Origin: Symbiodinium sp. CCMP2592
Taxonomy: Eukaryota > Sar > Dinophyceae > Suessiales > Symbiodiniaceae
Assembly: GCA_905221615.1 (NCBI GenBank)
Contig: CAJNDT010003290.1
Span: 310,001 to 374,000 of the forward strand
Direction: 5' to 3'
Length of the DNA stretch: 64,000 nt
Of the stretch, positions 21,888-40,771 are shown piece by piece. The position numbers and the translations under genes were made by a program. The notes beneath the pieces are model-generated. The model saw nothing but the letters and a program-made list of their open reading frames with translations. It did not search any database and had not been told where the DNA came from. How positions within the stretch are numbered: position 1 is the first letter of the stretch; each line of letters starts with the position of its first letter.

Positions 21888-21993
21888 GCACCTTATCAGG
21901 TGGGACGTCCAAGACTTAAGGTGGGGGGTAGGGGGGGGGGAGGGCCCCCCCCCCCTTCACCTTGTCATTGTGCGTTTTCCACTGATAAGGTGC
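21888..21993. mobile_element. Palindromic G/C-run element (MITE-like)
   Basis: Inverted repeats GCACCTTATCAG (21888-21899) and CTGATAAGGTGC (21982-21993) enclose long runs of G then C, allowing a near-complete hairpin. Just downstream are further C-runs and another AAGGTGG-G-run-C-run block at about 22025-22072, into which the large retrotransposon inserted. No target duplication was identified for this palindrome. Confidence 0.5.
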
Positions 21994-22072
21994 GCTTCCC
22001 TCCCCCCCCCTCCCCCCCCTCCTTTAAGGTGGTTGTGCCTGGGATAAGGTGGAGGGGGGGGGGCCCCCCCCC

Positions 22073-22322
22073 TGTGCCGATACACCCACAAGGAAATGCT
22101 CCTTGTTAGGAGGTGTATGACCAGTTTATTCCCTAAGGATCAAAGGGCAGCGCCCTGCACACGGACAGTGATTGTTTTGTCTACCTACGCAAGGAGAGCT
22201 TGTCTTGTCTCAATATGGTAAAACCACTGTGAGCCAATGGGCAGCGGAATGTATATGTATGAGCATGCAGCCATTGCTGTAGGTACCTGTTAGAGCTACC
22301 CCTTTAGAGGTTTACGGAATCA
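22073..22322 (-). repeat. 3' LTR of the large copia element
   Basis: This 250-base direct copy of 37740-37989 begins TGTGCCGATACACCC and ends GGAATCA on the + strand. It differs from its partner at 8 sites, three of them in the last seven bases. Inside is a short imperfect hairpin (AAGGAAATGCTCCTT). Confidence 0.92.
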
Positions 22323-22324
22323 AA

Positions 22325-22344
22325 CAGACACTAATTTTCTTTTA
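22325..22344 (-). other. Polypurine tract region, 3' LTR side
   Basis: Just inside the 3' LTR, the coding strand carries TAAAAGAAAATTAGTGTCTG. The purine run TAAAAGAAAA is the best candidate for second-strand primer, although it is about 10 bases from the LTR edge rather than abutting it. A near-identical copy occurs internally at 29675-29694. Confidence 0.5.
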
Positions 22345-22622
22345 CCGGAAGCATGGCCGCACATTCACACATATACTATTATGCCCACTGTCACAGTTGC
22401 GGAGTTTGGACTCATGATAAAAACAGCATATTGTTTATGCTAGGTATAGCACTGAAGTACACTGTTGAAGTCACTCCTTTTGAACCCTTTCATGCACATT
22501 GGTCAGAGAGATCATCTGTACAAGATCAGGTCTGGTGATGTTCTTCTATCGAATTATGCAGCCCTTCACTGTGCTCTTGTTAGAGCTTTGTGAGTCACTG
22601 TTGTGAAACTCTGAGAATTTTC

Positions 22623-25600
22623 TTATCTCAGATTCGGATCCAGGTTTGGATCATAGGCTCGAGCATAGACGTTCGGATGTGGTTCATCCGGGTCTGAGTG
22701 ATCTTCTTCGGAACTTGAAAAGATTCCGAGTAATCTGTTCTCAGCCCTGGTGAAGGCGGCGTCTGCAGTTTCATATCCATGGTTGGATGTAGTCGCCTTT
22801 GGCTCGGCCTTTGGTGCAGCTTGTGAGCTGATTGGAGTTGCCTCGGCTTTAGCCGGTTGTGGCTGCTTAGCCTTTGCCCGTTCGGCCCTTCTTCTTTCAA
22901 GCTGTCCGTCTGAGGACGCCCATGATCTTTCACTTTCATCTCCTGAGGGAGATAAGGCGTGGGCATGAAGGCTGTTCCAGTACTGTGCTGCAGAAGGAGT
23001 TAGGACTTCTTCATGGTCAGATTCTGACTGGTCTTCCTCAGAGCTTTGGTCGTCAAAAAGTGTCTCAAGGACATTTTTGAGGTTTTTATGTCTTCGCTCT
23101 ATCTCTAGTGAGGAATGGACCAATTGATTGAAGACTGTTTTTGAGTCCTTCAGTGCTGTTAGAAGGATTTCCACTCTGGATAGAGTATCTTGGATGGTGT
23201 CAAGATGATCCTTTCTTTCCTCCTTGTCTCTCTGGATAGAGTTTCGCAATGATTGTGCGATTCTGAGGAGGTCGAGATATTTCTCAATAGGCATAGTTAC
23301 CGTATGATTGTCATGTATGACAGTTGTTTCGTCGCTGCTCAAGTTCCTGAATAGGACTTCCACGACTGGTAGAAACTCCGTGCTCCACGGTTCCTCTTCA
23401 TCATATGTTTCTACGTGCTGTTGCACGCGTTGTGTAAACTGCTCGGCTGCTTCTACCGTTGCATCGATAGAGCTGACGTGTCTTACTGCCATGTTTCGGC
23501 ACATAGTGTTAATGGCCTGGCCTTGATTGGCTTCGCCAAGTGCAGCGTCTGCATGGTTGCAGAGTCCACTGTTATGGGCTTCTCTAGCTGCTTTTCGTTG
23601 AATGCGCCGATTTTGACCTCCTCTTCTGGTAGGACCTTTTGGTCTCGGAGGATCTGAAGGTACTGTTCCTTTCGCCTTTGGCGGAGGAGACTTAGGTGGA
23701 GGTGACATGTTTGCCTTGTTAGGCACTGGTGGCATTGCCTTGGGCACTGACGACGATGAGGCACTTGCGAGTGCAGATGTACCTCTGGCTCTTGCCGAGG
23801 ATCCCTTAGGGATTGATGTATAGGTAATCTGCATGGCTTCTTCGGCCATTTGTGAATGCAATGCATCACTGAATAATTGCCTCATATGAGGAGTAGTACT
23901 TGCATCGTCATAGGTTTGAAACCGTTCAATGTCCCTTTCGGTGCCACGTGATCGTGTATCACCTCTTTGAAAAGGATCGTTCCTGCGAATCTCCGCAACT
24001 TGTACTGCCTGGAGGCAGGTTTTACACAGCACCTTCCTTGAAACATCTTTTGCTTGCTTGAGCTGGTAACAGCTGTCTGAAAGATGGTAGACTTCGCTTC
24101 GGGAAGTGTGCCACACAGGTCGCAAATCCGTTGTTTCTCCAGAATTGACCCTGTTGGGTCCTAAAGGTTCACGCGTCTGTGGTTCATCCTCGGGTTCGAG
24201 AAACGGTGGTGGTCGTTTCGCTGCTGCTTTTGCATTTGATTGTTGGCGGTCCATACATCTGATGGGAGCCCTGGTGAACTGCTTCCACATCCAGTGTAGG
24301 CCCATTAGCAGCAGAAACACATTCCACGCGATGCTGAAGACGGAGAAGTCTTGCTCACTGGTTAGTGAGTTGGGAAGTGAAGGTTCATCAGTCTTGATAG
24401 ACTCTGCGTTCGCTCCACCGTGGTTACGGTGTCCGAACCAGCCCGACAACCCCGCTGCTGTGGCAGCTGTTCTGAGTGCCTTGCCGCTCGGAGCAGACGG
24501 TGGGCGTGATGCCTTCCTTCTTCTCCTCCGGCTGGAGGATTCGTCCTCTTGTTCCTCTTCATCTCTCTGAGCAGACATCAAGTTTGATGTTTCTCTTTCG
24601 TGTTCTTCGATGTCACTTTTTGTTGGTGACGGTTCTTCTTCTAGTCCATCCAGCTCTTCCAAAGACATGTTGAGCTTGTCAACAATATTGGTTCTTTGAG
24701 GTCTGGATCTCGATCTTGGTAGATCTTGTTGTGAAGAGGACGATGATGCCTGGCTCCTTCTTGGAGGAGAGCCTTCAGGCTCGCTGGGACGTTCAGGCCG
24801 TGGCCTTTCCCAGAATCTTCCATATCTGTGATAGCTACCTTGTGGTTGCTGTCTGTCGTACCAGCTGTTGCCGGATGAATACACAAATGAGTCTTTGTAA
24901 TCCCAGTATTCAGCATTACGCTGCTTGTAAGCCTGTCGCTTGTTAGCGATCTTCTGAACCTGGGCATCTGACCGGTTGTGTTTCCCTTTTGTAAGGATTG
25001 GTTGTATCGTGAAGCCCAAAGGGCTGTGCCAATCTTTGTCAGAGGGACTCAACCACAGGTCAAGGTTAGAAAAAGTTGAATAGTACTGCTTGACTGAGAC
25101 AAACAGACGGATATCGATATCCCTGTTTCTGTTCATGTCCTGCCACATATCTGAGACTCGTTCCCAGTATGTTCTTTCGGCGGCAGGTGTAGCATCTCTT
25201 GGACTAGGTGACGCCGTGTGCGGCGTTTTGCTCCAGTCAAGGATATAACTGTTGATACAGTCGAGGTCAGCAACTTTCTTCGCCGGGTCCGGCGGTAGAC
25301 GATCTGCACGTGCCAGTCTGTGCTGGTCAGAGTTGTTCAAGCAAAGGTGTCGCACTTGTGAGTGCCTTCCTGCTATTCTGTTGAATGCTGCAAGTTTCTT
25401 CTCCAGGTATAGAGAAAACAAACCGTTTCGCGGGTGAACGTCTCCACCTTTTAAGGTGAGCCTCGACGCAATATTATTGAGATCCCCCGCAATTACATCC
25501 GGTTTGAAAGGGAGAACCTCGTTGAGGAACGCGTTCACCAGTTCGCGCCTCTGTTCTTCCTTATGAGTCATGTATGAGTTGAAATGGACGATCGCGATGG

Positions 25601-28600
25601 TGATGACCTTGTAAGGCCCTTTTGTACACCACATCTCGTCAAGATCGTTTGATGCTTCTTGTGAGAAGATCTCTGCGTATGACTCAAAGTCTTCCTCTGG
25701 TGGCTCATCACCCTCGACATGGCCGTTCCATTCACAGAGAACCGGCGCAGGGTCGAGGTCCGACATTGTCAGACACGCCTCTGGTGAGAGGTAAGAGCCA
25801 TCAGTGGGTCCATCCTTGTCAGGATTTTTACCCTTGAGAGGGTCATATCCGATAATCTTCATGTACTCATCTCTCGTCATCCTCTGGCCGGAATATGGGT
25901 GGACCCATTCTTTTGCCTCCTTGATGGTACTGTGGTACCCAAAGGTGAGGCGGCATACCGCACCGTGGCATGCCCACAGTCGCTTCTTGGGACCACCAGC
26001 CTTAGGCTTCATTGTTCGGTGACGGTAAAAGTGGTGGACGAGAGAGATGTCTGTTGTTGGGTCACCCTTGACTCCAATATACATTGAGGGTGCCTCAGGC
26101 TCCTTGGGAGGAGAATGGATTAGCATCCCTCTGTATTCATGTTGTCGCATGGTTGCGATCGAATACTTTGACGCAAGTGCTCCTGCCTCGAGTACGAGGG
26201 TAATATGTGCTGAATTGTTGAAGCACATGTCAATAAGAGGGTGGTAATCGAATCCCTTCTCAGGTTTGAGTTTCTTTTTGGGATTCCCTGCTGGCACCGG
26301 CGCTCGATCCATATTTCCCCAGTTGCATACCACTAGGCTTAGTGATACGCTGTCTGGGTTTGAGCCCTCTATGTATTCTCTCTTTTCGTTAACACCGGCC
26401 ATCCTATTACGAACTATCTCGTAATGTGCGTCGAGCACCAGTTTGTCTTCGTAGCCAGTAAGAGAGAGAAAAGAAGCCGGGTGGCTTGTTCTGGAGTCCT
26501 TGATATTGATGTGACTCTTGTTAATGCTCTTGTATTCCTCCAGGGTTGGAGCCTCTGTGGAGCTGGTGTAAGTATTAGGAGGATTATTCCTAATATCATC
26601 AAAGCTACATGGATCAACGCCTGGATGGGCTCTCATGAACGAATTCCTTGCGATGTCGCAATACATGTTGATTTTCTGGATTGCCAAATCTACGTCCTCA
26701 GGTGTGAGGATGGCCTCGTATAAAAACTGACGCTCTTCTGAGGTCATTCCTGCTGACACTTTAGAGGTCTCGAGGCAATCGATTGGCAAGACGCACTCGC
26801 ACATCTGTTGTTTACCCTGTGGGGTAAGTCGACAGTCTGCACATACAATCGTACCACAGGAATAGCAAAAATAGCCTGTAGGCTGGTTGCAAAGATCGCA
26901 GAGAGGATTATCTGGTCGTGTCATCAGCCGTATCCTTTGGTTAAGACTCATGGCTGTCCTGCGTACTCCTACAAATCTCTCCTTGGTAGGAGGTGCAGAG
27001 GAGGAAGATGCCGAATCTCTGGGTCTGTCCCACTCCTCTTCGTCAGGAGCCTCAGAATCCTTGATCATGAGTGGACTTCGGATTTTTCGATTCCATCGAC
27101 TAACCCAGATTCTCTCTTTCATTTCCTGTTGCATAGCCGGGTTAGACGATGACTTCGAGATTCGGTGCTTGCGATTTTCTCGAAGTCGAGCGCTGATGCG
27201 CTCATGTTCTCTTACGAGATCTTCCTCATCAGCAGGTTCCTCGTATTCGAGGTTGAGCTTGCTTCTGTTGACTCGATAATAACTTTCTGTTTCAGGATCG
27301 AAGAGAACTAGGAATTTCTCCTTCTCCTTTTTAGGAGATTTTGGTTTCTGTGGCTCTTCGTCTGAACTCTGAACATATTCTGCTTCAGGCTTTGGTTGGT
27401 CAAGTTTGACCTTCTTAAGTTTCTCTGTGATCTCTTCCGTGGGAGATTCTTTCTTCTCCTCCGACGCTGCAGGTGCAGAGTTCGTCTTGTGAGACGGATT
27501 AACATCAACTCGGAGTTCTGAAGATGACGAAGATTTTGAGCTCTTTTCGCTTGATGCCGATTCATCGTCTGATTCTTCGTCACGATCCTGGTTAGGATCC
27601 GGTTCCTCAGGTTCCGTCTCTGTTCCAGAAGATTCTTCCTTGGGAGGAACTACGTTGGCGGAAGTATCCTGAACAGGTTCTGGAGGTTTGTGACCTGTCG
27701 TTATCTTAAGAACTTCGGTGGCGCTTCTGGTGCCGTCGGAGTTCCAGAGCTGTCCCATAAGACTGTCCGGATCCTTGTCAGCCTCGGCCTGCCGGGCGAG
27801 CTTGGATCTCGGATGGATCTCCTTTGCCGTAGTCTCCGTTTTCGGAGGTACCTCACCTGCAGAAGCGGTTTGCTCCAGGTTTGGAGCTGTGTCAGCCTCT
27901 GTCTTTGGCAGAGAAAAAGACTTCTTGTGAGAAGATCTAGCCTTGGGAGGCTCTGGTGGCAGATTTCGCCTTGCCACTTTTCGAAGTGCCGATTCGATTT
28001 CTCGGCCGTAATTTGCGCACCATTTCTTCGACTCGTAAGTCGCTGACGGCATCTGTTCGGAGCAATGGTCTGCCCACCATGGTCCGATGCTCTTGAGCTC
28101 ATCGTATTGCGATGATACCCAGAGTGTTTCAGAGGGTGCGAATACGGCGCTAAGAGTACGGGCATGCACTACATCTGGTGTAGCAAACATCCCTACTTGC
28201 GACTGCCACAGGTTTGTGACTTCGTTCACTACGTTATTTGCATCGAATACCAGAAGCAGTGCCTTGTTGGCACGCAACATGGTCGGATTGGGATTCGCCA
28301 GGTTTAGCGTTGAGAACTGAACAGTGTCCCTGTTGGAACGACTGTTTTCATTCACAAGAGCTTGGAAATCTGGTGCTGTAACCACCTGCGCTAGGAGGTT
28401 TGATGGTACCAGACCGTGCCTCAGGATTGAGGATAATGCCTGTAGGTCCGTGGCATGCATGATGTAACAAGGGTTGTTCTGTCGAACAAAATCCTCCATG
28501 CCGACGGGCCTTGGCGCGTTAGTGGAGAGACGCTGTGCATGGGACTGCACAGGATTGCTCCCCGTTGCCATGAAGTCTGAGATGGTCATGTGTGACCTTG

Positions 28601-29762
28601 GTCTCTCTTCTTCAGGATCTGGTTCTTCAGCTCTTGGTAGAGTTCGTCGTGAACCGTGTCCTCCCACTGCCGAAAGGAAAATTTTGCTCATGGTCAACAC
28701 ATTTGCATCCGGTGGGATGTTAACGGCGGCATCTGTGGTTTCGGCCTTGCCATCTTTGTTATAAACCATGGTGACCACAAACCTAGACTTAGTGTTGAGG
28801 AGGACACCAAGCGCGATCTCTTGTGGTGTATACTGTGCGAGCTCTGCATCGGCCAACTTGAACATGTCCAGAAGATAATTGTGTTGGCCAGCAAAGAGAT
28901 CTGGGCGCTGGTTCTGAAGGTGTCTTGTTGAGTGTGCCAACCACCTTCCGACTCTGTTGGTCTTGGAAAGAATGTGGAAGCACATCTCTGGTGAGAGACC
29001 TGTTACATCTGCCAGTTTTGGCACTGAGGAGGAATAGTCATATTCTCCGGATCCATCAAGGCTCACACATTGTTCTACCTCCGGTGGGAGGCCTGTCTGA
29101 AGGTGATGTGCAAGCATCGTACAGAACTGGCGTGGATCACGAGCGTGATTACCGACGTTGTTATCCCAGTATACAAGGGGACTGTTGTCCCATGGTCCTT
29201 GAAGGACTCCTTCGTAGAGCCTGACTCCATGTCTGGAGTTTAGAGTGAGCCTTGCTCCACTCGCATGGCCATATCGTGAGATCAATTGAGCAAGATCTCT
29301 TGGATGCGGATTGAACACCTGTTGGTGATCCATGATGATGAATTGAGGCTCATGATTTTTCTCACGTTTGTGAATTCGGTGTCCACCGTGTTCGGTGTTT
29401 CGACGTGATGCTTCCCGACGAGACTCGGGGTACGAGCTATCCATGTGTGGATGTCGCTCATGGTACGCCTGCACTGCCCTGGGTAGGGCGTGTCCATCAC
29501 GGCTACGGAAGTTTGATCGTGTGCTCATTACGGCACAATGACCAAACAGGATCAGGAACGCTTGGTTAGCCCGAAAGGCTGATTGCTGTGAGGCTCGAGG
29601 CTGAAAGCGGCTGCGGATGATACAGAACATATAATTCTCATGAACATGTCCGATCTTAATGAAAACGCAGCTCGCAGACACAAATTTTCTTTTAGACGGA
29701 AAACAGTCTAAATAGAAAATCCAGCACATGGTTGTGCTACCAGCAAACGAGACTACCACCAT
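22623..29762 (-). CDS. Giant extra ORF: Tpt1-like, zinc, EEP nuclease, TM
   Basis: A 2379-codon frame downstream of RT, where ordinary copia elements have nothing. ATG at 29762 overlaps the RT stop by 10 bases; a second good start is Met79 at 29528. Approximate domains follow. 436-560: HATDLQALSSILRHGL and ALLLVFDANN, resembling the RNA 2'-phosphotransferase (Tpt1/KptA) ADP-ribosyltransferase fold. 640-880: acidic, Ser-rich and disordered. 954-990: a cysteine cluster of CxxC pairs (CDLCNQPTGYFCYSC). 1144-1575: EEP-type nuclease with NWGN, LVLEAG, VHFNSYM, the catalytic-type GDLNN at 1424 and a terminal DWHSPL in place of SDH-P. 1808-1826: hydrophobic helix (SIAWNVFLLLMGLHWMW). About 1890-1912: a His-Cys...CxxC motif. 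2170-2234: coiled coil. EEP proteins cut DNA or RNA phosphodiesters; Tpt1 acts on RNA 2'-phosphates. A role in RNA processing, host-defence evasion or integration is inference only. Confidence 0.7.
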   Translation of the reverse strand: MVVVSFAGSTTMCWIFYLDCFPSKRKFVSASCVFIKIGHVHENYMFCIIRSRFQPRASQQSAFRANQAFLILFGHCAVMSTRSNFRSRDGHALPRAVQAYHERHPHMDSSYPESRREASRRNTEHGGHRIHKREKNHEPQFIIMDHQQVFNPHPRDLAQLISRYGHASGARLTLNSRHGVRLYEGVLQGPWDNSPLVYWDNNVGNHARDPRQFCTMLAHHLQTGLPPEVEQCVSLDGSGEYDYSSSVPKLADVTGLSPEMCFHILSKTNRVGRWLAHSTRHLQNQRPDLFAGQHNYLLDMFKLADAELAQYTPQEIALGVLLNTKSRFVVTMVYNKDGKAETTDAAVNIPPDANVLTMSKIFLSAVGGHGSRRTLPRAEEPDPEEERPRSHMTISDFMATGSNPVQSHAQRLSTNAPRPVGMEDFVRQNNPCYIMHATDLQALSSILRHGLVPSNLLAQVVTAPDFQALVNENSRSNRDTVQFSTLNLANPNPTMLRANKALLLVFDANNVVNEVTNLWQSQVGMFATPDVVHARTLSAVFAPSETLWVSSQYDELKSIGPWWADHCSEQMPSATYESKKWCANYGREIESALRKVARRNLPPEPPKARSSHKKSFSLPKTEADTAPNLEQTASAGEVPPKTETTAKEIHPRSKLARQAEADKDPDSLMGQLWNSDGTRSATEVLKITTGHKPPEPVQDTSANVVPPKEESSGTETEPEEPDPNQDRDEESDDESASSEKSSKSSSSSELRVDVNPSHKTNSAPAASEEKKESPTEEITEKLKKVKLDQPKPEAEYVQSSDEEPQKPKSPKKEKEKFLVLFDPETESYYRVNRSKLNLEYEEPADEEDLVREHERISARLRENRKHRISKSSSNPAMQQEMKERIWVSRWNRKIRSPLMIKDSEAPDEEEWDRPRDSASSSSAPPTKERFVGVRRTAMSLNQRIRLMTRPDNPLCDLCNQPTGYFCYSCGTIVCADCRLTPQGKQQMCECVLPIDCLETSKVSAGMTSEERQFLYEAILTPEDVDLAIQKINMYCDIARNSFMRAHPGVDPCSFDDIRNNPPNTYTSSTEAPTLEEYKSINKSHINIKDSRTSHPASFLSLTGYEDKLVLDAHYEIVRNRMAGVNEKREYIEGSNPDSVSLSLVVCNWGNMDRAPVPAGNPKKKLKPEKGFDYHPLIDMCFNNSAHITLVLEAGALASKYSIATMRQHEYRGMLIHSPPKEPEAPSMYIGVKGDPTTDISLVHHFYRHRTMKPKAGGPKKRLWACHGAVCRLTFGYHSTIKEAKEWVHPYSGQRMTRDEYMKIIGYDPLKGKNPDKDGPTDGSYLSPEACLTMSDLDPAPVLCEWNGHVEGDEPPEEDFESYAEIFSQEASNDLDEMWCTKGPYKVITIAIVHFNSYMTHKEEQRRELVNAFLNEVLPFKPDVIAGDLNNIASRLTLKGGDVHPRNGLFSLYLEKKLAAFNRIAGRHSQVRHLCLNNSDQHRLARADRLPPDPAKKVADLDCINSYILDWSKTPHTASPSPRDATPAAERTYWERVSDMWQDMNRNRDIDIRLFVSVKQYYSTFSNLDLWLSPSDKDWHSPLGFTIQPILTKGKHNRSDAQVQKIANKRQAYKQRNAEYWDYKDSFVYSSGNSWYDRQQPQGSYHRYGRFWERPRPERPSEPEGSPPRRSQASSSSSQQDLPRSRSRPQRTNIVDKLNMSLEELDGLEEEPSPTKSDIEEHERETSNLMSAQRDEEEQEDESSSRRRRRKASRPPSAPSGKALRTAATAAGLSGWFGHRNHGGANAESIKTDEPSLPNSLTSEQDFSVFSIAWNVFLLLMGLHWMWKQFTRAPIRCMDRQQSNAKAAAKRPPPFLEPEDEPQTREPLGPNRVNSGETTDLRPVWHTSRSEVYHLSDSCYQLKQAKDVSRKVLCKTCLQAVQVAEIRRNDPFQRGDTRSRGTERDIERFQTYDDASTTPHMRQLFSDALHSQMAEEAMQITYTSIPKGSSARARGTSALASASSSSVPKAMPPVPNKANMSPPPKSPPPKAKGTVPSDPPRPKGPTRRGGQNRRIQRKAAREAHNSGLCNHADAALGEANQGQAINTMCRNMAVRHVSSIDATVEAAEQFTQRVQQHVETYDEEEPWSTEFLPVVEVLFRNLSSDETTVIHDNHTVTMPIEKYLDLLRIAQSLRNSIQRDKEERKDHLDTIQDTLSRVEILLTALKDSKTVFNQLVHSSLEIERRHKNLKNVLETLFDDQSSEEDQSESDHEEVLTPSAAQYWNSLHAHALSPSGDESERSWASSDGQLERRRAERAKAKQPQPAKAEATPISSQAAPKAEPKATTSNHGYETADAAFTRAENRLLGIFSSSEEDHSDPDEPHPNVYARAYDPNLDPNLR
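29675..29694 (-). other. Internal copy of the polypurine-tract motif
   Basis: Twenty bases match the 3'-LTR-adjacent motif at 22325-22344 at 19 of 20 positions (TAAAAGAAAATTTGTGTCTG on the coding strand), with similar CCGGA/GACGGA context beyond. It lies about 60 bases after the RT stop, within the first codons of the giant ORF. It is either a central polypurine tract or the fossil of an older 3' end from before the extra ORF was added. Confidence 0.6.
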
Positions 29763-32700
29763 ATTCCTTGGCAGTAAAATAATCGGTAAATCTCTGTTGA
29801 GATATCAATTCCAAGGAAGGCTACCGCTGTGGCGGCATTCTTGAGATTGTCTATGATCCACCGAACAGTGAAAGCTTTATGTTGAAGAAGTTCACGGAAG
29901 GGTGGATGAATGTCTGTTTCTGGTAAATTCCCTGTTTCCAGAGCCTTGATAAGCTCATCAGGTTGCGCCGAGTGCTTTGTTAATGCATCAGCTAGGCAGT
30001 ACTTCGAGCTTACATGAGCTAGGTCATCTAAAGATCCAGAGTTGGATTCCTTACGAAGCATCTGAATGAGGTGGTGAGTTTCCTTCTGCTCTGGAAGGTG
30101 TGTCGTGCCTGCTGTTGTCACAAGATTGTTCGCATCTGTTCTGATATGTATGGGTACGGTCTCTGATGAGAGATCTGCCCAGAGTCCCTTGAGGAACAGG
30201 CAAGTACCAAAGCAACGCATCAGTGCGTTAAGCTCTGCCACTGTTGTGGACATTGTGGTTGTCGTAATCTTGTGAGACTCATAATCCACCAGGCTACCTC
30301 TCGAGGATGTTTCCTTACTAGAGGATTCAGAGAAATCGTTCTTCTTGGAAGAAGCAGCTGCTGCTGATTGTTTCATTCCCTTTAGCTTTGGATTTCGATC
30401 TTCAGCAAGGAAAATAACATGTGCTCTCTGAGATGATTTGTGATCATTGTTCCTGTAGGAAGCATCAGGGTAACCGAGGATTCTGAGATTTCCTTTCAGC
30501 GGCCAAAAACGCAGTTCTACTTCAGTAGACTTCAAAATCCTAACCAGCTTGTTCAATTCTCGAATATCACCGATAGTAGGCTTGGCAGCCTTACTCGCAC
30601 ACCGACTGAAGCGATAACAGATGTGAGCTTGAGTCCGGCTTTGTAGCCAGTTGATCTGTCCTAAAACACTTCTGTAAGCAGTGTGCTGCTGTGGTGTGCA
30701 TTGTTGCTCATTGTTGAGCTTCTTATCAAAAACAATTTCCTCTAGAGCTTCAACAGCTAGGTTCTGATTTACTGAGATATGTGCTGGCACTGATGCTGTA
30801 GCATCCTTCCAGACTAATCTCTGTCCTACAAACATAATATCGTTCGTGTCTTCAGAACCGACTGCAAACTCCTTTTTGATCGATTCAATCACGGCCTTAC
30901 GAAAGGTGTCATCACCGGCCATGCACAGGTCATCTACATGTAAACAGACTACTCCATGTACCTGTCTACCCTTGGCATTGTTGCCTGCTATGGGATCTAG
31001 GAGATAGTCAATCGCTGATTCCATGGTCTTTGGCTGAGACTTCTTGAGCTCAGCATCTGCTGTTTCAGACTTCTTACCATACAGAACATATGTACAGCGA
31101 TCCGCACGGGTTGGCACCAGGCCGTAAGACAGGAGTGCCTTATCAACGATGTTCCACCATCTTCGCGGTGCATCGTTAAGTCCATAAGCGGGTTTCTTCA
31201 TCCTCGCTGCAATGTAGGGAGGATAACCTGCTTCAGGAGGAATCTGACAGATTATGTCTCTCGACTCATCATAGTCTTCACCCTGCAGGAAAGCAGTCTT
31301 TAGGTCGATGTGTGTCAGATTCCACAGCTTGTTAGCTGCTAGTTGAATCGCTAAGCGGAAACCTGGGCGACTCGCAGCAGGACTATCAGTTTGCTGTATG
31401 TCCTTTTGTCGATCCTGGAAACCTCTTAGGACCCATCGGGCCTTGCACTTAAGGAAGTTTCCGTCCTTATCTCTTTTTAGAGTCAGGACCCATCGACCAG
31501 TGACATAATTTCGGATGTTTCCGAGTTTCCGTGTATCGACGAGCTCAAAGACATCATTGTCTAGCCAGCTCTGATATTCTGCTGCTTTCGCTTCATCAAA
31601 CTGTTTCTTCATCTCACGCTTTTCCTTGGCGGTTGCCTCCTTCCGTTGTGCCTTCTGGGTCAAATTTGCTGAGTTCCTGGGGGAACTTAGGGATAAGGCC
31701 TTGTCCTCTTCCGTGAGAAGATCATACTCTTCACGGATGTCAGATCGGAACCTTTTGGTGGGTTTATACCGTGTTCGGTCTGACCTCACTCTTGATGTTA
31801 CCTCTCTAATGTCTACGGGTCCGCCATGCATGTACCGAGGCATGGAGAAAGAACCTGTGTTACTGCACAGTTTCTGTTCTTCTGTGAGAAGGATCCAGTC
31901 CTTCTCATCTACGACCAGGTCACCTTCCTCATCAGAGTAATACCTTGTGTCGTCTGACTCGGCATCGCTCTCCGGTTCTGGTGAACCAGAGGTGTGAGGA
32001 GGAGCGGACGGTTGTCCGGGGTCGTCCGGGACCAGTTCTTCTTCAGAATCTTCTTCATCTTGTTGTAACGGAAGAATGGGTCCCTGTGGATGTGCCTTCG
32101 GTTTAGGTTTTGGTGTCGGCACCTGTGAAGGTGATTTCTGTTTGTGCGGCGAAACTTTCCTTTCCGATGAAGACCTTGGCGACACATCACCCCCCAGACG
32201 CCGAGGAGACGGAACGCGAGGAGGCGGATGCACGCGAGGCTTAGCCCGAGCAGGAGCCACGGGCTCATCGGAGGAAACGGCCGGTAGTCGCGGTGGAGGT
32301 ATGGGAGGAGGAGGACGCGACGGCGGCGTGCCGGGAGGCATCGGCTGATCTGGTTCCGGCATAGAGACATCGTCAGATGTGATCCGTGAGCGATTAGTGC
32401 TCATGGGTTCTGACGGGTCTGACGGCGAAACCTCTTCGTCCGACATGATAACATCCGGCGGTGTTCGCACGGACGGTGAAGTCTTGCCGCCTGTCATCTG
32501 GAAGAGCACCCCCGAGAAGGTTGATGGGTGTACTTTATTCCAGGAAACCTGGTGCGGCAAGCAACACGTCATAGTCGAATTGGGCTTCTTCTTGTTCCAG
32601 AAGACAAGAACGCCATCAGTTACACTGGTGAGTGCTTTGACTGTTCCAAATGTACCTCTGTATAGAGTACACTGTTCGAAACCAGACCCTGGTAAGAGTC

Positions 32701-32998
32701 TTGATCTAAGGCGAGTAATGTCTGACACCAAGGCATCAAGGGACGGTGATGGTTTGGAATGATGCAATGGTAATTCAGTTTTACTCGATAAGGAATTTAC
32801 TCTAGCAACAAGTGATCTGATTTTCGGATCTTGCAGGAGTTTGGAATCCTTGAGAGGATTTGCTGTCAAAAGTGAATACTCTTGGTCAAGAAGTTCCGAA
32901 AGTCCCTGGAGGCATTCATCTCCAGAGTATCCTAGTATGTCTGTGACTAAAGAAAGATGAGATGCATATGTATCTCTCTTCAGAATCTTGCCAAACAC
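29753..32998 (-). CDS. Copia reverse transcriptase-RNase H polyprotein
   Basis: A 1081-codon frame with no ATG near its beginning (the first codon usable as a start is GTG), overlapping the integrase frame; it is therefore probably reached by frameshift. Residues 1-150 are an unassigned N-terminal region, followed by a long Pro-rich then acidic linker to about 370. RT spans about 460-770: ARWVLRGFQD, HIDLKTAFLQGEDYDE, the AYGLNDAPRRWW motif and the catalytic HVDD at about 684 (YVDD in most copia). RNase H follows, with acidic residues in GYPDAS (841), TVAELNA (918), RTDANN (about 958) and LADALTK (1003). All expected catalytic acids are present, so activity is plausible. A Ser/Lys-rich insertion sits between the first and second RNase H acids. 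Confidence 0.9.
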   Translation of the reverse strand: MFGKILKRDTYASHLSLVTDILGYSGDECLQGLSELLDQEYSLLTANPLKDSKLLQDPKIRSLVARVNSLSSKTELPLHHSKPSPSLDALVSDITRLRSRLLPGSGFEQCTLYRGTFGTVKALTSVTDGVLVFWNKKKPNSTMTCCLPHQVSWNKVHPSTFSGVLFQMTGGKTSPSVRTPPDVIMSDEEVSPSDPSEPMSTNRSRITSDDVSMPEPDQPMPPGTPPSRPPPPIPPPRLPAVSSDEPVAPARAKPRVHPPPRVPSPRRLGGDVSPRSSSERKVSPHKQKSPSQVPTPKPKPKAHPQGPILPLQQDEEDSEEELVPDDPGQPSAPPHTSGSPEPESDAESDDTRYYSDEEGDLVVDEKDWILLTEEQKLCSNTGSFSMPRYMHGGPVDIREVTSRVRSDRTRYKPTKRFRSDIREEYDLLTEEDKALSLSSPRNSANLTQKAQRKEATAKEKREMKKQFDEAKAAEYQSWLDNDVFELVDTRKLGNIRNYVTGRWVLTLKRDKDGNFLKCKARWVLRGFQDRQKDIQQTDSPAASRPGFRLAIQLAANKLWNLTHIDLKTAFLQGEDYDESRDIICQIPPEAGYPPYIAARMKKPAYGLNDAPRRWWNIVDKALLSYGLVPTRADRCTYVLYGKKSETADAELKKSQPKTMESAIDYLLDPIAGNNAKGRQVHGVVCLHVDDLCMAGDDTFRKAVIESIKKEFAVGSEDTNDIMFVGQRLVWKDATASVPAHISVNQNLAVEALEEIVFDKKLNNEQQCTPQQHTAYRSVLGQINWLQSRTQAHICYRFSRCASKAAKPTIGDIRELNKLVRILKSTEVELRFWPLKGNLRILGYPDASYRNNDHKSSQRAHVIFLAEDRNPKLKGMKQSAAAASSKKNDFSESSSKETSSRGSLVDYESHKITTTTMSTTVAELNALMRCFGTCLFLKGLWADLSSETVPIHIRTDANNLVTTAGTTHLPEQKETHHLIQMLRKESNSGSLDDLAHVSSKYCLADALTKHSAQPDELIKALETGNLPETDIHPPFRELLQHKAFTVRWIIDNLKNAATAVAFLGIDISTEIYRLFYCQGIWW

Positions 32999-34989
32999 GA
33001 GGCAAAGGTCTCACAGAATTCATAAGGATACACTTGTGCGAGTTTCGTTTTAAGACCGTAGCCTTGAATACCCTTTTCGTCTCCTGGTGGAGATGTTGGA
33101 GATTTCGTTTTGGCAGAATGCCTCTGGAGAGGAGTTAGAACCTGCGGTGGCAGGTTGTGCATGAAAATCGAGGATTTCGATTCATAGTATCCTTTTGGAT
33201 CTTTCATGCCATAGGCTTGTAGGTTACAGACCTCATAGCTGATCTTGCGGTTGGAAAACAGGCGTTTTGCTTCTGGTGAAGACCAGAGCCTGCTGTAGTA
33301 TGGGTTCTCAAGAACAAAGTAACGTCCGAGCTTCATTTGGTGGTCTGCGACCGATTCACAGAATTTTAAAACAGAAAGTCTCTTGGCAGAGCCTTTCTTC
33401 CACTGTGAGTACCAGCTAGACCACTGAGAGTGATCGGGTGACATAACAATAATAGTAGGTTCTTGTTCCTTGATGATCCTAAGAAGATTGGAGCGACCTT
33501 GCGGTTGCTCAAGATCTAGACCACTACGCAAGTCGACTGGCTGACCTACTCGCAGACCTGACAGGGCAGCCTTGTGACTCATACGGGGAGATCCACCGTA
33601 GAGTTCTAGGAAGTCAATCTTCCCAGTGCTGGTGACCTGCCAGTGACACTCTTGATGCGGAACCGTTAGGTCTGTCGACTGCAGGGAAGCATCAAAGGTG
33701 ACCATGCAACTTGCGTGATCAGAACCTTCTGACGTCAGAGTTTCCTCATCAGGCGCGAGAGGAATCTCCACATCAGATGTTATGTCATAATTTTTCCTCA
33801 GTTTTGAGATATTAACGCGGACGATGCGTGTTCCAAGATCCACACCTACCATGGATCCTCCGAGTTCGGAGATCACCTTTCCTTTTAGCCAAGATCCATG
33901 TTTGGACCCAGTTGATCCAATCTTAGACTTATCCTCTGACCAGTAGAAAACCTTATCTCCCAAAGAGAAAGGTCCTTCGGTCATTGACAGTCTGGCCGCA
34001 AGATCTCTGCGCAGATCATCAGATTGGCGTGCCTCTTGGTAAGCCCTGTTGGCAAGCTCCTTAATGGCTCTCGCAGTGACTTCCGTATCAGTTGGATTAC
34101 CTGTCAACTGATTGGGATCAGCGTTCTCTGGTGTTATAACATCTCGAGGACGCCTACCAAAGGCCATTTCTAAAGGAGTAACTCCTCCGTAGGTAATCGA
34201 AGAGTTTCTTGCCAAACATGCTTGTCGAACGAGGTTGCCATACTTCATGGTGATTCCGTTATACTGCGGGTCACCATCCTTCAGGATCTGAAGTATGATC
34301 TTAATCTGATGCTTCAGCAATCTTACAGCAGCTTCGGCCCTGTTGGGCCATGGTGTTCCAGGTCCTGTTGCTACAGGCTTGATATTCTGCCGATTGTAAT
34401 AAGCCTCCATTTTTGGAGTCATGAATGCTTGATCTCCAACTACAACCTTTGGGTTGATCTGAAATTTCTCAAAGTAGTCATTCATAATCGACATTGTAGT
34501 ATGCTCTTCTTTATCCTGGACTACTTCGGAAGTCAACAGGTTTGTTGCTCCGTCATAGAGAATAAGAAATATTAAGCGACTATTCTTGCCGGGAATTGGA
34601 AGCTCACCGTGATCTACGAAGGTGAGATCACCGAAAGTCTCTGATCTTAAACCGGAAATCTTCGCTCTTGAAGGAGCTCTCACGTGTTCCTGACAGGCTG
34701 AACACTTTTTGACCAGTTGGTCATATAGCTGATATATCTCCTTTGGGATCTGTAAGGCTTTCGTGCGTCGCTTGAACTGATCCGTACTCATATGACGGTG
34801 CTTAAGGTGAAGCTTATAGAGTTCTACAGGGTCCTTAAGCTTCTCATGAATCCTGCGAAGAGCAATGGGAAGAGATGGCGATGGTTCTGCGACAATCTCT
34901 TCACCTGTAGGTGAGTCTGTACCAGGAGCCGGGTATTCTCTTGACTCAAGTGGTCTTACCTCCGTCCCGTCATCAGCTCCTGGGACCAT
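32980..34989 (-). CDS. Copia integrase fused to methyltransferase-like domain
   Basis: A 669-codon frame from ATG at 34989. The same frame is open back to 35285, overlapping the gag-protease frame by about 250 bases, so the real product probably continues from gag-protease by a -1 shift. The integrase part has the zinc site (LHLKHRHM at about 60, CSAC at about 92), then DDE catalytic residues in VDHGE (about 126), GDQAF (about 184) and NRAEA (about 217), followed by a GKVFYWSEDKSK-type C-terminal module near 343. From about 457 to the end is a second domain resembling cytosine-5 DNA methyltransferases of dinoflagellate retroelements: LELYGGSPRMSHKA as motif I and VLENPYYSRLW as motif VI. At motif IV it has SPDHSQWSSW, where an active enzyme has Pro-Cys. 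The catalytic cysteine is therefore missing and methylation activity is doubtful. Confidence 0.8.
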   Translation of the reverse strand: MVPGADDGTEVRPLESREYPAPGTDSPTGEEIVAEPSPSLPIALRRIHEKLKDPVELYKLHLKHRHMSTDQFKRRTKALQIPKEIYQLYDQLVKKCSACQEHVRAPSRAKISGLRSETFGDLTFVDHGELPIPGKNSRLIFLILYDGATNLLTSEVVQDKEEHTTMSIMNDYFEKFQINPKVVVGDQAFMTPKMEAYYNRQNIKPVATGPGTPWPNRAEAAVRLLKHQIKIILQILKDGDPQYNGITMKYGNLVRQACLARNSSITYGGVTPLEMAFGRRPRDVITPENADPNQLTGNPTDTEVTARAIKELANRAYQEARQSDDLRRDLAARLSMTEGPFSLGDKVFYWSEDKSKIGSTGSKHGSWLKGKVISELGGSMVGVDLGTRIVRVNISKLRKNYDITSDVEIPLAPDEETLTSEGSDHASCMVTFDASLQSTDLTVPHQECHWQVTSTGKIDFLELYGGSPRMSHKAALSGLRVGQPVDLRSGLDLEQPQGRSNLLRIIKEQEPTIIVMSPDHSQWSSWYSQWKKGSAKRLSVLKFCESVADHQMKLGRYFVLENPYYSRLWSSPEAKRLFSNRKISYEVCNLQAYGMKDPKGYYESKSSIFMHNLPPQVLTPLQRHSAKTKSPTSPPGDEKGIQGYGLKTKLAQVYPYEFCETFASCLARF

Positions 34990-35036
34990 AGACTTCTCTT
35001 CAACAGGAGGTTTGACCGCATATTTGCGGGTTTTCT

Positions 35037-37637
35037 TCAGAAGGTTTTTAAGACCCTTTGGAGTCTTTGTCTTCGCAGGTGGAACCTCAAGTCTTTCTTC
35101 TTCTGGAGGTTCGTGCGGTGCAGATGATTCTGCAGGTTTGTCTCTAGAGCCTGATGATGGTTCCGATGGTTCGGAAGGCTCAGGAGCATCACCAGATGGT
35201 TCTGGTGGATCAGGTTTCTTGGCAGATGATTCTGCCGGATCAGATGGAAGAGGCTTCTTCTTACCTGAAATCCCTTCGGTGGTGGATCAGCTGCTCCCTC
35301 AGGTGCCTTGTCGCAACCTTTGAGGTACGTATGAGCCCTTTTCTGTCCTGCGCAGGCTGGACAGCGACCTTCCGGGATCCTAGTATAAGGTCTTCCTTCT
35401 TCCTTTGGCTTCCTAGCTCCTAAGGCAGTCTCTGTCGCACTGAACGACGTACCTGACTTAGGGAGATACTTCCTGGTGGAAGTGAAGCCTAGAAGGTCCA
35501 ATACCAAATGGTTATTGGTACTAATCGGAAGAGGGGTTTTATACAAACCGAAAGCTTCACACGTTGCTAGGTCAGCTGTGGGACTACACTCGAGGGTCAT
35601 TCTTAGATTCCTCATCTGTTCGATGGAGAACAAAATGGGAACTCTCCCCTGATCCAGAACTTCTATGGTTGTATCTCTTCTTGGAGTTGTGTTGAACCAT
35701 AGAGTTACACGCTCCTTGATAAGAGCTGTTTCACTATCTGCGAAAGAGAACTTCGTGTTCGAAGGTGAGAAAGTGAAATCAATCATGCCTGGGGCACGTT
35801 GCTTCACGGCCTTGATAAGCCTGTTCACCGCATAGCGGGAACCCATAGCCCTAGTACAACCTGAGTCAAGTATGACAAAGGTAGGGTTCTTATCAAGATT
35901 GATCCGCTCTGTGAGAGCAGATAGGACGGTGTGCTGCAACGGAAACACCGCTGTTGCAGTTTCAACACCTTGCCCCTCGGATGGTTCAAAGACCTGGGGC
36001 ACGTAACTCACTGATGAGTTGAACACGGGTTCTTGGTGCGCGCTCGGATCTGTGCCTCTACCTGATGATCCTGCTTGATTTCTTCTCTTCTTTCTCCGTG
36101 TTTTTCTTCGTGAGGCTTGTGATGCATAGTATGTATAAGACGTTTGATCGTCATAAGCGGCATAATTCCAACTGGAGTCAGTATAATAACTGTCCTCATA
36201 CCATGAATCCCAGCTCGGTGCGGTGGAACTTTCATAGGCCTGTGGAGATCCAGTTTGGTCTCCTTGTAAGGAGGCAGACTTAGCTGTATCCTTACCTTTG
36301 CCTTTTGATTTTGTACCCTTGAAGGAGCTTCCTTTATCTCCTTTGTCCTTTCCTTTTCCTTTGCCTTTTCCACCTTTTCCTTTTTCCTTTCCTTTACCTT
36401 TACCGAAATAGCTGGAATCAGTTGGATCATGTTCTGCCTGGTTGGCTCTCCCTTTTCCGCGGTATGACCTAAAACGGCCACGTCCTTTTCGCTTGCCACC
36501 CTTTGCTCTTCCCGGTGATCCGGGACGCATTCTTGGTCTTCTTCCCTTTTTGAATCTCCTTGCAACGAAGGCCTCATGGTCATCAACTGTCCAGAAGACA
36601 GCTTCTTCATCCTCGGCGGCAAGAAAGCCTTCCTCAAGGGTGTCTTCGTCTTGGAGCCAGAATCCATCGACTCCATCGTATTCACCCTGATCGAGGATGA
36701 GGAAGTTTCGACCTCCGCGTTTGCGGCGTTGGTCTCTCCTTCCATGGCGGTCCTTCTTGTGAGAAGAGTGCCGAATGTTGGGATCCTGCAGACCAGTTCT
36801 GGTCGTTGAGAACTGATCGAACATGGTCTGCCGTACCACAGGGTACGTGTAGGTCTCAATTCGGTGACCTTGGTTGGTCAATGCTGTTACCAACCTCTCA
36901 CGTTGCATCTCATTTAGGTCGGACTGCACTAGGAAGAGGAGAGCTAGGAGATTATCATTTAGAGGAAACGCTCTTCGATGATTATCAAGGCGTTCCTTGT
37001 TCCATGTTTCGAAGAAACGTGCGGCGTATGTGTCTCTCTCGGTTGCATCCTGTAGGCGCAAGAAGGTTTGATCTGCCTGCACAGCCTGCATGAAATCTGG
37101 ATGGGCATCTTCCAGAGCTATCTCTGGTAAGAGATCCATCCATGAGTTTTTCACGCGCTGTAGCACGATCTCAAACTTGGCAATCCAAGTCACAAAGTCT
37201 TGGTTGCCCTTCCATGCCTTGAATAGGCCGAGGAAACGCCACAGGAAAACGTACTGTTCTCCTTTCACGAAAAATGGACGCATCTTCTTCTTGAAGTAAT
37301 CTACTCCATCTGGGGCTGCAAGCCTTTCTCGGTTCAGTGATTCCTTTTGTACTGCGGCCAATCCGGAGAGCCTCGTCTTGAGAGACGGACCTCTTTTGGT
37401 GTCATCCAGCGTTGTTATGTCGCACCAGTCGTCAATCAACTGTTCATACTCAAACCACGAGGTGGTGCCATCATAGGCAGGCGCGATCTTGGGCGTTATG
37501 CCTAATGATGCAAGCATGCGGTCAGATGTTGCATATGACTGTGCGACATAAGTGGCTGGACCTTGGGAGGTCTCTTCGTTCTCATATCCCCCGGAGGATT
37601 GGGAACTGTCGTCGGCTTCGCTGTGCGAGCTCGACAT
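35037..37637 (-). CDS. Copia gag-protease polyprotein
   Basis: An 866-codon frame from ATG at 37637. Residues about 30-300 are a helical gag domain (WFEYEQLIDDWCDITTLDDT, FETWNKERLDNHRRAFPLND). Instead of a CCHC zinc knuckle there is a Gly/Lys-rich nucleic-acid-binding stretch near 412-446 (GKGKGKEKGKGGKGKGKGKD). The aspartic protease is near 585-720, with the active-site motif VILDSGCTRAMGS. A Cys/His site, CPACAGQKRAHTYLKGC, follows near 757. After about residue 787 the frame reads as low-quality sequence, while the -1 frame becomes protein-like (GKKKPLPSDPAESSAKKPDP). The useful reading therefore shifts to the integrase frame between 35285 and 35037. The exact shift site shows no canonical slippery heptamer. 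Confidence 0.85.
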   Translation of the reverse strand: MSSSHSEADDSSQSSGGYENEETSQGPATYVAQSYATSDRMLASLGITPKIAPAYDGTTSWFEYEQLIDDWCDITTLDDTKRGPSLKTRLSGLAAVQKESLNRERLAAPDGVDYFKKKMRPFFVKGEQYVFLWRFLGLFKAWKGNQDFVTWIAKFEIVLQRVKNSWMDLLPEIALEDAHPDFMQAVQADQTFLRLQDATERDTYAARFFETWNKERLDNHRRAFPLNDNLLALLFLVQSDLNEMQRERLVTALTNQGHRIETYTYPVVRQTMFDQFSTTRTGLQDPNIRHSSHKKDRHGRRDQRRKRGGRNFLILDQGEYDGVDGFWLQDEDTLEEGFLAAEDEEAVFWTVDDHEAFVARRFKKGRRPRMRPGSPGRAKGGKRKGRGRFRSYRGKGRANQAEHDPTDSSYFGKGKGKEKGKGGKGKGKGKDKGDKGSSFKGTKSKGKGKDTAKSASLQGDQTGSPQAYESSTAPSWDSWYEDSYYTDSSWNYAAYDDQTSYTYYASQASRRKTRRKKRRNQAGSSGRGTDPSAHQEPVFNSSVSYVPQVFEPSEGQGVETATAVFPLQHTVLSALTERINLDKNPTFVILDSGCTRAMGSRYAVNRLIKAVKQRAPGMIDFTFSPSNTKFSFADSETALIKERVTLWFNTTPRRDTTIEVLDQGRVPILFSIEQMRNLRMTLECSPTADLATCEAFGLYKTPLPISTNNHLVLDLLGFTSTRKYLPKSGTSFSATETALGARKPKEEGRPYTRIPEGRCPACAGQKRAHTYLKGCDKAPEGAADPPPKGFQVRRSLFHLIRQNHLPRNLIHQNHLVMLLSLPNHRNHHQALETNLQNHLHRTNLQKKKDLRFHLRRQRLQRVLKTF

Positions 37638-37717
37638 TGTGCTGCCTCTTATCCGCTTGGTTAAGCGTTCGGCGAGGCCGACCGCTGTAGCGGACTTTGG
37701 GAGGCGGGCGGCCCTTT

Positions 37718-37733
37718 CCGGGCTCCGCTACCA
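37718..37733 (-). other. Primer binding site, tRNA 3' end
   Basis: Six bases inside the 5' LTR, the coding strand reads TGGTAGCGGAGCCCGG. That is complementary to a tRNA ending GGCTCCGCTACCA, close to the eukaryotic initiator-Met acceptor (a ...CTNNGCTACCA end implying an A1:U72 pair). Copia elements commonly prime with initiator tRNA-Met. Confidence 0.7.
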
Positions 37734-37739
37734 GAAAAC

Positions 37740-37989
37740 TGAGCCGATACACCCACAAGGAAATGCTCCTTGTTAGGAGGTGTATGACCAGTTTATTCCC
37801 TAAGGATCAAAGGGCAGCGCCCTGCACACGGACAGTAGTTGTTTTGTCTTGCTACGCAAGGAGAGCTTGTCTTGTCTCAATATGGTAAAACCACTGTGAG
37901 CCAATGGGCAGCGGAATGTATATGTATGAGCATGCAGCCATTGCTGTAGGTACCTGTTAGAGCTACCCCTTTAGAGGTTTATGGTTTCA
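37740..37989 (-). repeat. 5' LTR of the large copia element
   Basis: This 250-base partner of 22073-22322 runs from TGAGCCGATACACCC to GGTTTCA and is followed directly by a C-run. It should carry the element's promoter and polyadenylation signals; no TATA-like element is obvious, as expected for dinoflagellates. Confidence 0.92.
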
Positions 37990-40771
37990 CCCCCCCCCCC
38001 TATCATGAGGTCCCCCCCTCCCCCCCCCTCCTCAAGGTCCCTTGGTTTTGTTTGTGTCTGACGTTCGGCGACTGAAGTGCGGTCTTCTCTCCAGAGTTAC
38101 CTCTAGTTGTCGTTCGCACATTACTTTCTCAAGAGTTAAATGAACGAGCAACGCCTGCACCCTTCACCGGCCCAAACTTTCCCTCCGCTACTGTCGTGCA
38201 CATCGCTTTGCAGAGCTCAGCACCGGACCTCGTGCTTCTAGCTTTCGTGACCAGCTCTCAAGTGTGGTCACAGGGGGATTTCAGCTCAAGTATCGAGCTT
38301 GCCTGCTGACCTGAATTTGCTGCATACAGAACCGCATGTAATGCGTCGATCTTGAAGTGCTGGAGATCGCTGTGCAAAGGAGCCGAAGGTCAGCTCCACC
38401 AAGCCGGGGCTCTCAGCTACGGAGCTTCCTTTGCGCCGGGGAAGGGTGTTTAGCAGATTGCCTCCGCTGGCGCACATGCACCAAGCACCGAGCCACAATC
38501 CCAACAGTGTTTTTTCTCAGGGTCGCGGACTACCGGAACTACGCAGAACGAGAGTCTCGCTGGCCTGCATTGCCGTTTCTCTTGGCCAGGGCTAGAAGTC
38601 TCAATCGGTGGAGGGAGCCTAAGTGGAGTTGAGAGCTGGAGAGACAGCCAAGGCTAGTCCATCGAAGTGAAAGAAAAAGAGGCAAACCAAGAGGCGAAGA
38701 GATACACACACGCACACAGAGACATGTCTCTCTTTCCATCTCTCGGTCTGTCTGTCTGTCTGTTTATGTACTTACATGCATACACAAGAACAGGTCTGTT
38801 GCCCCAAAGGACCATGTTCCGTGATGCGATCTCTGCCGGCTTTGGTCTCCTTAGAGGGATGAGTAGGTAGATTTTGCCCGAGCCGCTGTCAAAGCAACAC
38901 CATCCGAGTCACTCCCAGCATCTCCCAGCGCTTCCCTTTTGGCCGCTCCTTGATTCTTCGCCAAGAGCAGGTTGAAAGGCACAGGATGGGGAGGTCCTCC
39001 CATCAAGCGCCCCAAGCGCAAGGACAGGGCGATGATTCTCTCGTGATAACGGCTCCATGGTGCTCTGTCCTGGGAAGGACAACCGAGACCTCACGCCTGC
39101 GCAGCAGATGCAGATTGGCTGAATCTAGTGCCCGGCAGGGTCTGCAAGCAAATCGATTGAAGATTTCATTGATTTAGGTTTATCCCAGCATAGGGAGACT
39201 TTGCCACGGGCTCAGGCAGCTCGACATGGAAGGTCAGACAGCGCCACAGCTGCAAGAAGGGCCTCTTCGACGTAGATTGAACCTTTGCCCGAACTCCCAC
39301 TCCAAACCTGGGATGCTAGATGAAGCAAACCGCAGAGAGGGTGTCGGAGTACTGTGCAGGTGCCGGAAGAGGACTGTCTGCGCTCCCTTGCAGAACCTTT
39401 GAGTTTGTGACACGCTTCAGAAATCAAGAGCCCTGCTGATCGGCTGTGACCCACACACTTCCATGACTGTCTGCGGCTGGCTTGTCTTGTTGGCCCAGAC
39501 CAGGCAGTAAGGCTTTGGAGGCAAGACCTCCAAGAACAACGACGATCGTAAGAGCAAGGCGAGTGCGGGACGACAACAGCCGCAAACATGGTCTGCTTGA
39601 CAAAAGCAGTCAAGCCGAAAACTAGGTTGCAGTGTCTACATATATACATATAACATGAACAAGCCACCATAGCAATGAGAAGTACAGTGCGGAGGAGCAA
39701 GAGGGCCTGGCTGACATGATCCAGGGGCAGGTGCACGAGGAGGAGCCAAACCCCCGAAAGTGAAGGGGTGTCTCATGGTATCTCTTTCGTATAATGTGCT
39801 TGCGGGTTCAGGCACTGTTTCGTCAGCACCTGGGACTCCTGGATTCTGTGCGATGTCGGTTCATGAGCACCAGCCACTTAGAAATTTACTACGCCGAAGG
39901 ACACGGAGTTCTTCGTCATGCAGAGCTTTCCGAAGTTCACCTTGATCCAGCCACCCACCCGGACTGCTCGTCAGATGGAATGTTTTTCGCACTGCTTCAA
40001 GGGCAGTCAAACCGACTTGCACACACATTGACATGTCCCCGCTCTCAGCATCCATGAGGTCCCTGGTGATCTTTCTCGGCTACGTGGTGCTGCGCAGCTG
40101 CAAGCAGAGCTCAGGATGTTTCGAGCGTTTGGCAGCCCTGGCAACCAAGGCTCTCGACCACTTCCGGGATCGGCCTCGCGGGTCTGGAGACTTTCTTTCC
40201 TGGGCAGACCGACCTGGCTTTGACCAATGTGATGGTGAAGTCAGGTGAGGCTGCCTGTCAGGCCGGTCGGAACTAGTGGGCTTAGGGCCCCAATCGCGAT
40301 CGCCGATCTGGCCACCCTTCGCCACAGGACTTTCGCTGGCAGTTGTGGCGCGCGCAACTGGGCCGCAGCAGGTGCCACTTCGCGGCGGCTGCGGTGGTTT
40401 CAGTCAGGTCGCAGAAAGTTATTAGCGCCGGCTTTACGTTGCCTAAGTATCTGCAGCTGTCGCCGTCATTTTCCTCGGAGCGCGAAGCTTGTTGCCGAGG
40501 ATTACATACCAGTACTCACACAGCTCCTTCTCCCACATGCTCGGCAACGCCGTCGCCCGAGAATGCCGCCTTTGATGGGACTGGTCTCAAGCATTTCTCT
40601 GAGGTTTCCAACTTTCAGGGGAGGAGCATTTAAGTTGCCGAGAAAGGTTTGTGCTTCTTGCCATTTCAAGAAGGCTTGCTGCTCGCACACTTCGCTTGTG
40701 GAGAGCAGACCTAGACATGATCCATACATTGAGAAATCGGTAGAATCGAGGCTATATACCTCTTTGTAGTG
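37990..40771. other. Intergenic; one exon-like frame
   Basis: A C-run and GC-rich tract (37990-38045) mark the insertion site. Downstream no gene is firm. A + strand frame near 39800-40055 includes HLEIYYAEGHGVLRHAELSE and could be an exon, but the antisense frame (GWLDQGELRKALHDEELRVL) is equally protein-like and neither has clear splice partners. Confidence 0.3.

Follow-up and report, generated by a model that had tools for sequence, protein, structure and literature searches.

A 15.9-kb Ty1/copia-order retrotransposon of Symbiodinium with a methyltransferase-like domain and a very long additional open frame

The sequence analyzed here (the window) is a 64,000-nucleotide (nt) stretch of the genome of Symbiodinium sp. 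CCMP2592 (contig CAJNDT010003290.1, positions 310,001 to 374,000), the minus strand of which contains a 15.9-kb long terminal repeat (LTR) element in Ty1/copia order (22073-37989). All features of this element lie on the minus strand, in the order LTR, primer-binding site (PBS)-like sequence, gag-protease, integrase, C5-cytosine-methyltransferase-like domain, reverse transcriptase (RT)-RNase H, a very long open reading frame (ORF) named ORF2, and LTR. The Ty1/copia order is gag, protease, integrase, RT and RNase H. The element is a true copia-order element of an unusual kind: its RT frame matches RVT_2 in Pfam (E 2.7e-17; 63.6 bits against a cut-off of 31.6), integrase is located upstream of RT, and paired TG..CA LTRs are accompanied by a PBS-like site, in agreement with the original prediction of a copia-type element. 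Direct repeats at 22072-22322 and 37739-37989 share 97% identity and, after trimming to 250 bp, yield the 3' LTR (22073..22322) and the 5' LTR (37740..37989), both with TG..CA ends. As had been claimed, the matched LTRs show eight differences. Six of these are paired in three adjacent doublets, a pattern more suggestive of a small number of events, or of recombination among copies, than of single-base ageing. The predicted primer site was recovered as the PBS-like sequence TGGTAGCGGAGCCC (37733-37720), 6 nt beyond the 5' LTR, which we take to be similar to the 3' end of the initiator-Met tRNA, the priming tRNA being a candidate only. No tRNA genes were detected in the window by a bacterial-code scan. 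The element is flanked by C runs on the plus strand (22054-22072 and 37990-38000), the left one directly preceded by a G run. Any short C duplication would fit these flanks as a target-site duplication, and the insertion site, or its assembly, is unusual.

The four long open frames of the prediction are present, all on the minus strand, with 896, 768, 1085 and 2393 codons from stop to stop; the longest open frame in 100 first-order Markov sequences with the element's length and dinucleotide make-up was at most 317 codons. The open-frame scan placed the gag-protease frame (896 codons) at 35037..37727, and its VILDSG at residue 618 is presumably a protease motif. The integrase frame, which also holds the methyltransferase-like domain (32980..35286; 768 codons), gave matches to rve (E 0.021) and to an IS481-type transposase (3e-4), both below their own cut-offs, and an integrase profile built from 11 sequences (window included) matched retroviral integrase (E 0.0074). 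The RT frame (29753..33010; 1085 codons) contains what we take, by eye, to be RNase H motifs. These three frames are broken against each other. In nine of 13 relatives of the methyltransferase region (P0005-P0008 and P0010-P0014), the protein continues past 32980, where the integrase frame of the window ends; BLAST aligned the window RT frame from its start in six of them (P0005, P0006, P0007, P0011, P0012 and P0013), the remaining three were judged by eye, and P0005 covers integrase and methyltransferase and extends into the first part of RT. Since these nine relatives read through, the frame change between methyltransferase and RT is probably a lesion of the CCMP2592 copy in the window. The status of the split between gag-protease and integrase (35037-35286) is less clear: both sides are in one frame in P0008, and P0005, P0006 and P0015 start near there. 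Predicted proteins of relatives can conceal frame changes inside introns.

The methyltransferase-like domain covers about residues 555-730 of the integrase frame (33097..33624). That such a domain follows integrase, as originally predicted, is borne out by the predicted fold, for which C5-cytosine methyltransferases are the best match by a modest margin. Pfam does not see it: DNA_methylase was listed neither for the window frame at E up to 1 nor for the six relatives scanned (of 13) at E up to 10. Searches of IMG/VR with the methyltransferase alignment confirmed no relatives. Motif IV of C5-cytosine methyltransferases carries the catalytic cysteine, which is kept as APVC or APIC in nine of the 13 relatives and is absent from the window, where the motif reads MSPDH. 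With this cysteine missing, the methyltransferase part can have at most a structural role in this copy, and with two frame changes also interrupting gag-pol, the copy in its present state is probably non-autonomous.

Downstream of RT, ORF2 extends over 2393 codons from stop to stop (22623..29804); the 2379 codons previously reported hold when counted from the first ATG (residue 14). Because the match to a relative is poor upstream of residue 92, MSTRSNF at this residue (position 29528), which is common to both, is the probable start. Two protein searches, each scoring about 8,000 candidates, produced at least nine ORF2-family proteins and no protein family beyond these among the candidates scored. 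The named sources are Symbiodinium sp. CCMP2592 (P0003 and P0004), S. microadriaticum (P0019 and P0020) and Symbiodinium sp. KB8 (P0018 and P0022). These nine are predicted proteins found via ORF2 itself, a sampling that cannot show copies without ORF2. Four of the nine listed proteins (P0003, P0019, P0020 and P0022), together representing all three named sources, also hold gag, integrase or RT pieces, and five have no pol piece. The order of the element is kept in P0003, P0019 and P0022; in P0020 the ORF2 piece stands ahead of gag, as in tandem copies. The gene models are patchworks, P0003 for example showing only 58% identity to the RT frame over 344 columns. P0003, a CCMP2592 protein named BSL3, has element pieces fused to a phosphatase domain (PF00149), and its name probably derives from the host part; this accounts for at least one strange host gene model as being made up in part of element pieces. 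Elsewhere, no relatives of ORF2, RT or the ORF2 block were confirmed in IMG/VR, nor any of the ORF2 block in a prokaryote collection, 3.5 kb of ORF2 DNA matched no plasmid, and ORF2 is absent from NCBIfam. As other Symbiodinium sequences combine ORF2 relatives with this element machinery, the added cargo probably belongs to the element and is not debris. A chance nest, in which ORF2 came from an unrelated element inserted into a short copia element, would account for the 15.9-kb length, an unusual size for copia. However, no second repeat pair of at least 40 nt, direct or inverted, exists within 21000-39000, and the joint occurrence of pol and ORF2 pieces in the four proteins also contradicts such a nest, which was already disfavoured and is very improbable.

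ORF2 is colinear with a divergent subfamily at about 56% identity over most of its length (P0001, 55.6% against residues 27-1899; P0021, 56.0% against residues 1476-2298). Identity to P0001 per 80 residues varies from 37% to 81%, with the peak at residues 1121-1200. Selection at the protein level was analyzed in two closer relatives at 91-92% identity (P0003 and P0004), using only positions with local identity of at least 70% in 21-residue windows, a filter intended to drop misjoined edges. This retained 855 of 891 positions with 44 replacements in P0003 and 586 of 612 positions with 38 replacements in P0004. The mean BLOSUM62 score of the replacements was +0.64 and +0.58, respectively, compared with -0.45 and -0.43 for random single-base change, and the observed mean exceeded the random one in all 2,000 draws for each protein. 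Replacements were also commoner at columns where P0001 and P0002 differ (p 0.034 and 0.016). The replacements thus appear more conservative than random change, and these tests point to constraint on ORF2. Taking the LTR differences as a clean clock, one would expect ORF2 to have accumulated about 4.6 nonsense changes, or 2.9 with each doublet counted once. None was observed, so either the LTR clock is off or the ORF2 frame has been kept. Given the co-occurrence with pol, the colinear 56% subfamily and the conservative replacements, ORF2 looks inherited within a lineage and under long-standing constraint there.

Several points weigh against this interpretation. Unfiltered BLOSUM62 means were lower (+0.26 for 65 replacements in P0003 and +0.24 for 50 in P0004; above the neutral means, no draws made), and for this reason the best explanation is held slightly less firmly. 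In the same CCMP2592 gene model, P0003, ORF2 is less conserved (90.8% over 641 residues) than integrase (98.6% over 282 residues), so recent constraint on ORF2 may be relaxed. P0019 shows 73.9% identity in its linked RT piece and 60.7% in its ORF2 piece. The P0003 and P0004 comparisons may share history, and stops could be spliced out of predicted gene models. Moreover, open frames in a young copy, taken alone, are no proof of selection, and the copy itself has gag-pol split twice and lacks the motif-IV cysteine. The original prediction that the extras have been kept under recent replication, and so probably matter to the element, is therefore upheld in part: ORF2 is not private to this copy, stands beside pol pieces and appears constrained, and the argument from open frames and low LTR divergence is weak by itself.

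As to content, ORF2 shows a weak Tpt1/KptA-like region at residues 195-580 (28062..29219). PTS_2-RNA (PF01885) was the top Pfam match in all three cut-out pieces scanned, of four cut, with E values of 0.0057 (window ORF2), 1.4e-4 and 0.033, all below the Pfam cut-off (best 22.4 bits against a gathering threshold of 26). Whole-protein scans listed it only in P0001 (0.025), not in the window ORF2 or P0002. A B-box-like zinc finger follows at residues 964-991 (26829..26912; Pfam E 4.1e-4, below the cut-off), with E 0.17 in P0002 and no listing in P0001. The block at residues 1143-1592 (25026..26375) is well conserved in the alignment with relatives, and endonuclease/exonuclease/phosphatase-like motifs read in it by eye are a tentative lead. 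The structure model of residues 940-1640 has a predicted local distance difference test score (pLDDT) of 29. Sequence searches of the PDB with the Tpt1-like region and the conserved blocks gave nothing convincing, and no endonuclease/exonuclease/phosphatase sequence was among the six matches up to E 10. Towards the C-terminus, a predicted hydrophobic segment at residues 1819-1837 (24291..24347) has the highest Kyte-Doolittle value of any window in the frame and was also seen by eye in P0001, P0019, P0021 and P0022. A conserved His/Cys motif at about residues 1896-1930 (24012..24116) is the same in P0021. Any function of ORF2 suggested by these features is putative.

The hydrophobic segment raises the question of an envelope-like gene. 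Envelope-like genes have been claimed for Sireviruses. Under this explanation, the element would be a retrovirus-like copia, with ORF2 expressed from a spliced message and the C-terminal segment crossing a membrane. The position of ORF2 after pol and the one hydrophobic segment common to its relatives are compatible with it, as are plant elements with env-like extra ORFs, transmembrane domains and splicing, described in PMC7264820. On the other hand, there is a single marked hydrophobic segment after the probable ORF2 start, no signal peptide was seen by eye (no predictor was used), and the B-box- and Tpt1-like matches are unlike a glycoprotein. We consider an envelope function unlikely.

An A-rich 19-nt motif adjoining the 3' LTR (22325..22343) resembles a polypurine tract and recurs only once, with 18 of 19 positions identical, upstream of the probable ORF2 start (29675..29693). 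Such a match was found in none of 100 random sequences, the best of which reached 15 of 19. P0001 encodes SKRK at the place corresponding to the internal motif, which may be a second polypurine tract, an ORF2 start signal or a scar of ORF2 gain. The last possibility bears on the proposal that ORF2 is a host gene or a part of another element that recombined between pol and the 3' LTR in one ancestor and has since drifted passively. The two motif copies flanking ORF2 are what template switching could leave, and the faster divergence of ORF2 than of integrase, a further point against our interpretation, would fit as well. However, a subfamily at 56% identity shares ORF2 colinearly, the replacements are conservative, and no outside family was found among the candidates scored. 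Passive drift after capture accordingly seems improbable to us. Separately, a candidate spliced-leader relic in the LTR was rejected, as 4.5% of 2,000 random LTRs reach its score and many sites in the window score higher.

The explanation we favor, and consider fairly likely, is a copia-order element of Symbiodinium-like dinoflagellates whose lineage has stably gained both a methyltransferase-like domain between integrase and RT and, downstream, a separate gene about 2,300 codons long. Full-length RNA would give Gag-Pol, and ORF2 would have a separate message that begins close to the internal A-rich motif. The product would be an accessory protein acting on the element's own RNA or DNA through its Tpt1-like and zinc-finger parts, and it may sit at a membrane. 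More tentatively, a giant copia lineage of coral-symbiont algae might possess its own nucleic-acid toolkit beyond gag-pol, in which a methyltransferase-like part of Pol is combined with a Tpt1-like (RNA-2'-phosphate/NAD-type) domain of ORF2 that repairs the element's RNA or cDNA or disguises it from the host, the internal polypurine-like motif separating ORF2 from Pol; we regard this as possible and rather doubtful.

Additional genes of LTR elements are mostly short, and their use is generally unknown. Here, by comparison, ORF2 measures about 7 kb, is found together with pol pieces in several Symbiodinium sources and bears signs of protein-level constraint. The element is like Ty1/copia in its RVT_2-type RT, integrase before RT, short TG..CA LTRs and PBS-like site by the 5' LTR, and unlike it in its 15.9-kb length, the methyltransferase-like domain and the 2,300-codon ORF after RNase H. 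Similarity of ORF2 to Tpt1/KptA RNA 2'-phosphotransferases (PF01885) consists of a weak profile match in three of three pieces, below the cut-off. According to de Mendoza et al. 2018 (PMC5890265), Symbiodinium harbors retroelements with a cytosine-methyltransferase domain, SymbioLINE-Dnmt and SymbioDIRS-Dnmt3, its LTR Copia superfamily is without any DNMT domain, and most CG sites of its genome are methylated. Whereas those elements are LINE and DIRS, the window element is copia-type, with a divergent domain that lacks the cysteine in this copy; a C5-methyltransferase-like domain in a copia-type Pol runs contrary to that statement on Copia. In the same study, KnitGypsy-Dnmt3 of Klebsormidium, also an LTR element, carries a methyltransferase inside its Pol frame, but it is of Gypsy order, and its methyltransferase is of Dnmt3 type with key residues conserved. 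Additional sense ORFs are also described in plant LTR elements (PMC7264820), where the extra gene likewise follows pol and precedes the 3' LTR; ORF2 is probably much longer and has weak Tpt1-like and B-box-like matches. The literature covered on dinoflagellate or Symbiodinium LTR elements and on Tpt1 with retrotransposons, available in part and with preprints and most subscription journals outside it, names no such element. If DNA from many copies confirms this, the family would allow one to test directly what benefit a load of this kind brings to a retroelement in a genome where most CG sites are methylated.

Within the same assembly (1.098 Gb, 5,383 contigs), 20 copia loci were picked by hand from 150 scored RVT_2 matches (of 5,766 candidates), among which the window's own RT was not included, and were each examined over about 9.7 kb, to a point about 4-5 kb past RT. 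None of the 20 matched ORF2 at E 1e-3; they are distant families (RT identity of 22-30% in 12, no RT match in eight) and uninformative on copies of the element's own family. A weak methyltransferase-like match was found in two (L022 and L026), there upstream of integrase. In both, a methyltransferase-like stretch (with PPCGPYS in L022) is followed by 2-oxoglutarate/iron oxygenase-like motifs read by eye, likewise before integrase, the whole at about positions 540-2100. Neither stretch is recognized by Pfam in these loci, and both may be relevant to dinoflagellate base modification. A second copia-like element was noticed by eye on the minus strand of the window at 54436-56681, in separate open pieces that are integrase-like (55758-56681) and RT-like (54436-55098). 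Finally, at about 44400-46500 of the window, several frames on the two strands stay open across a long simple-repeat stretch.
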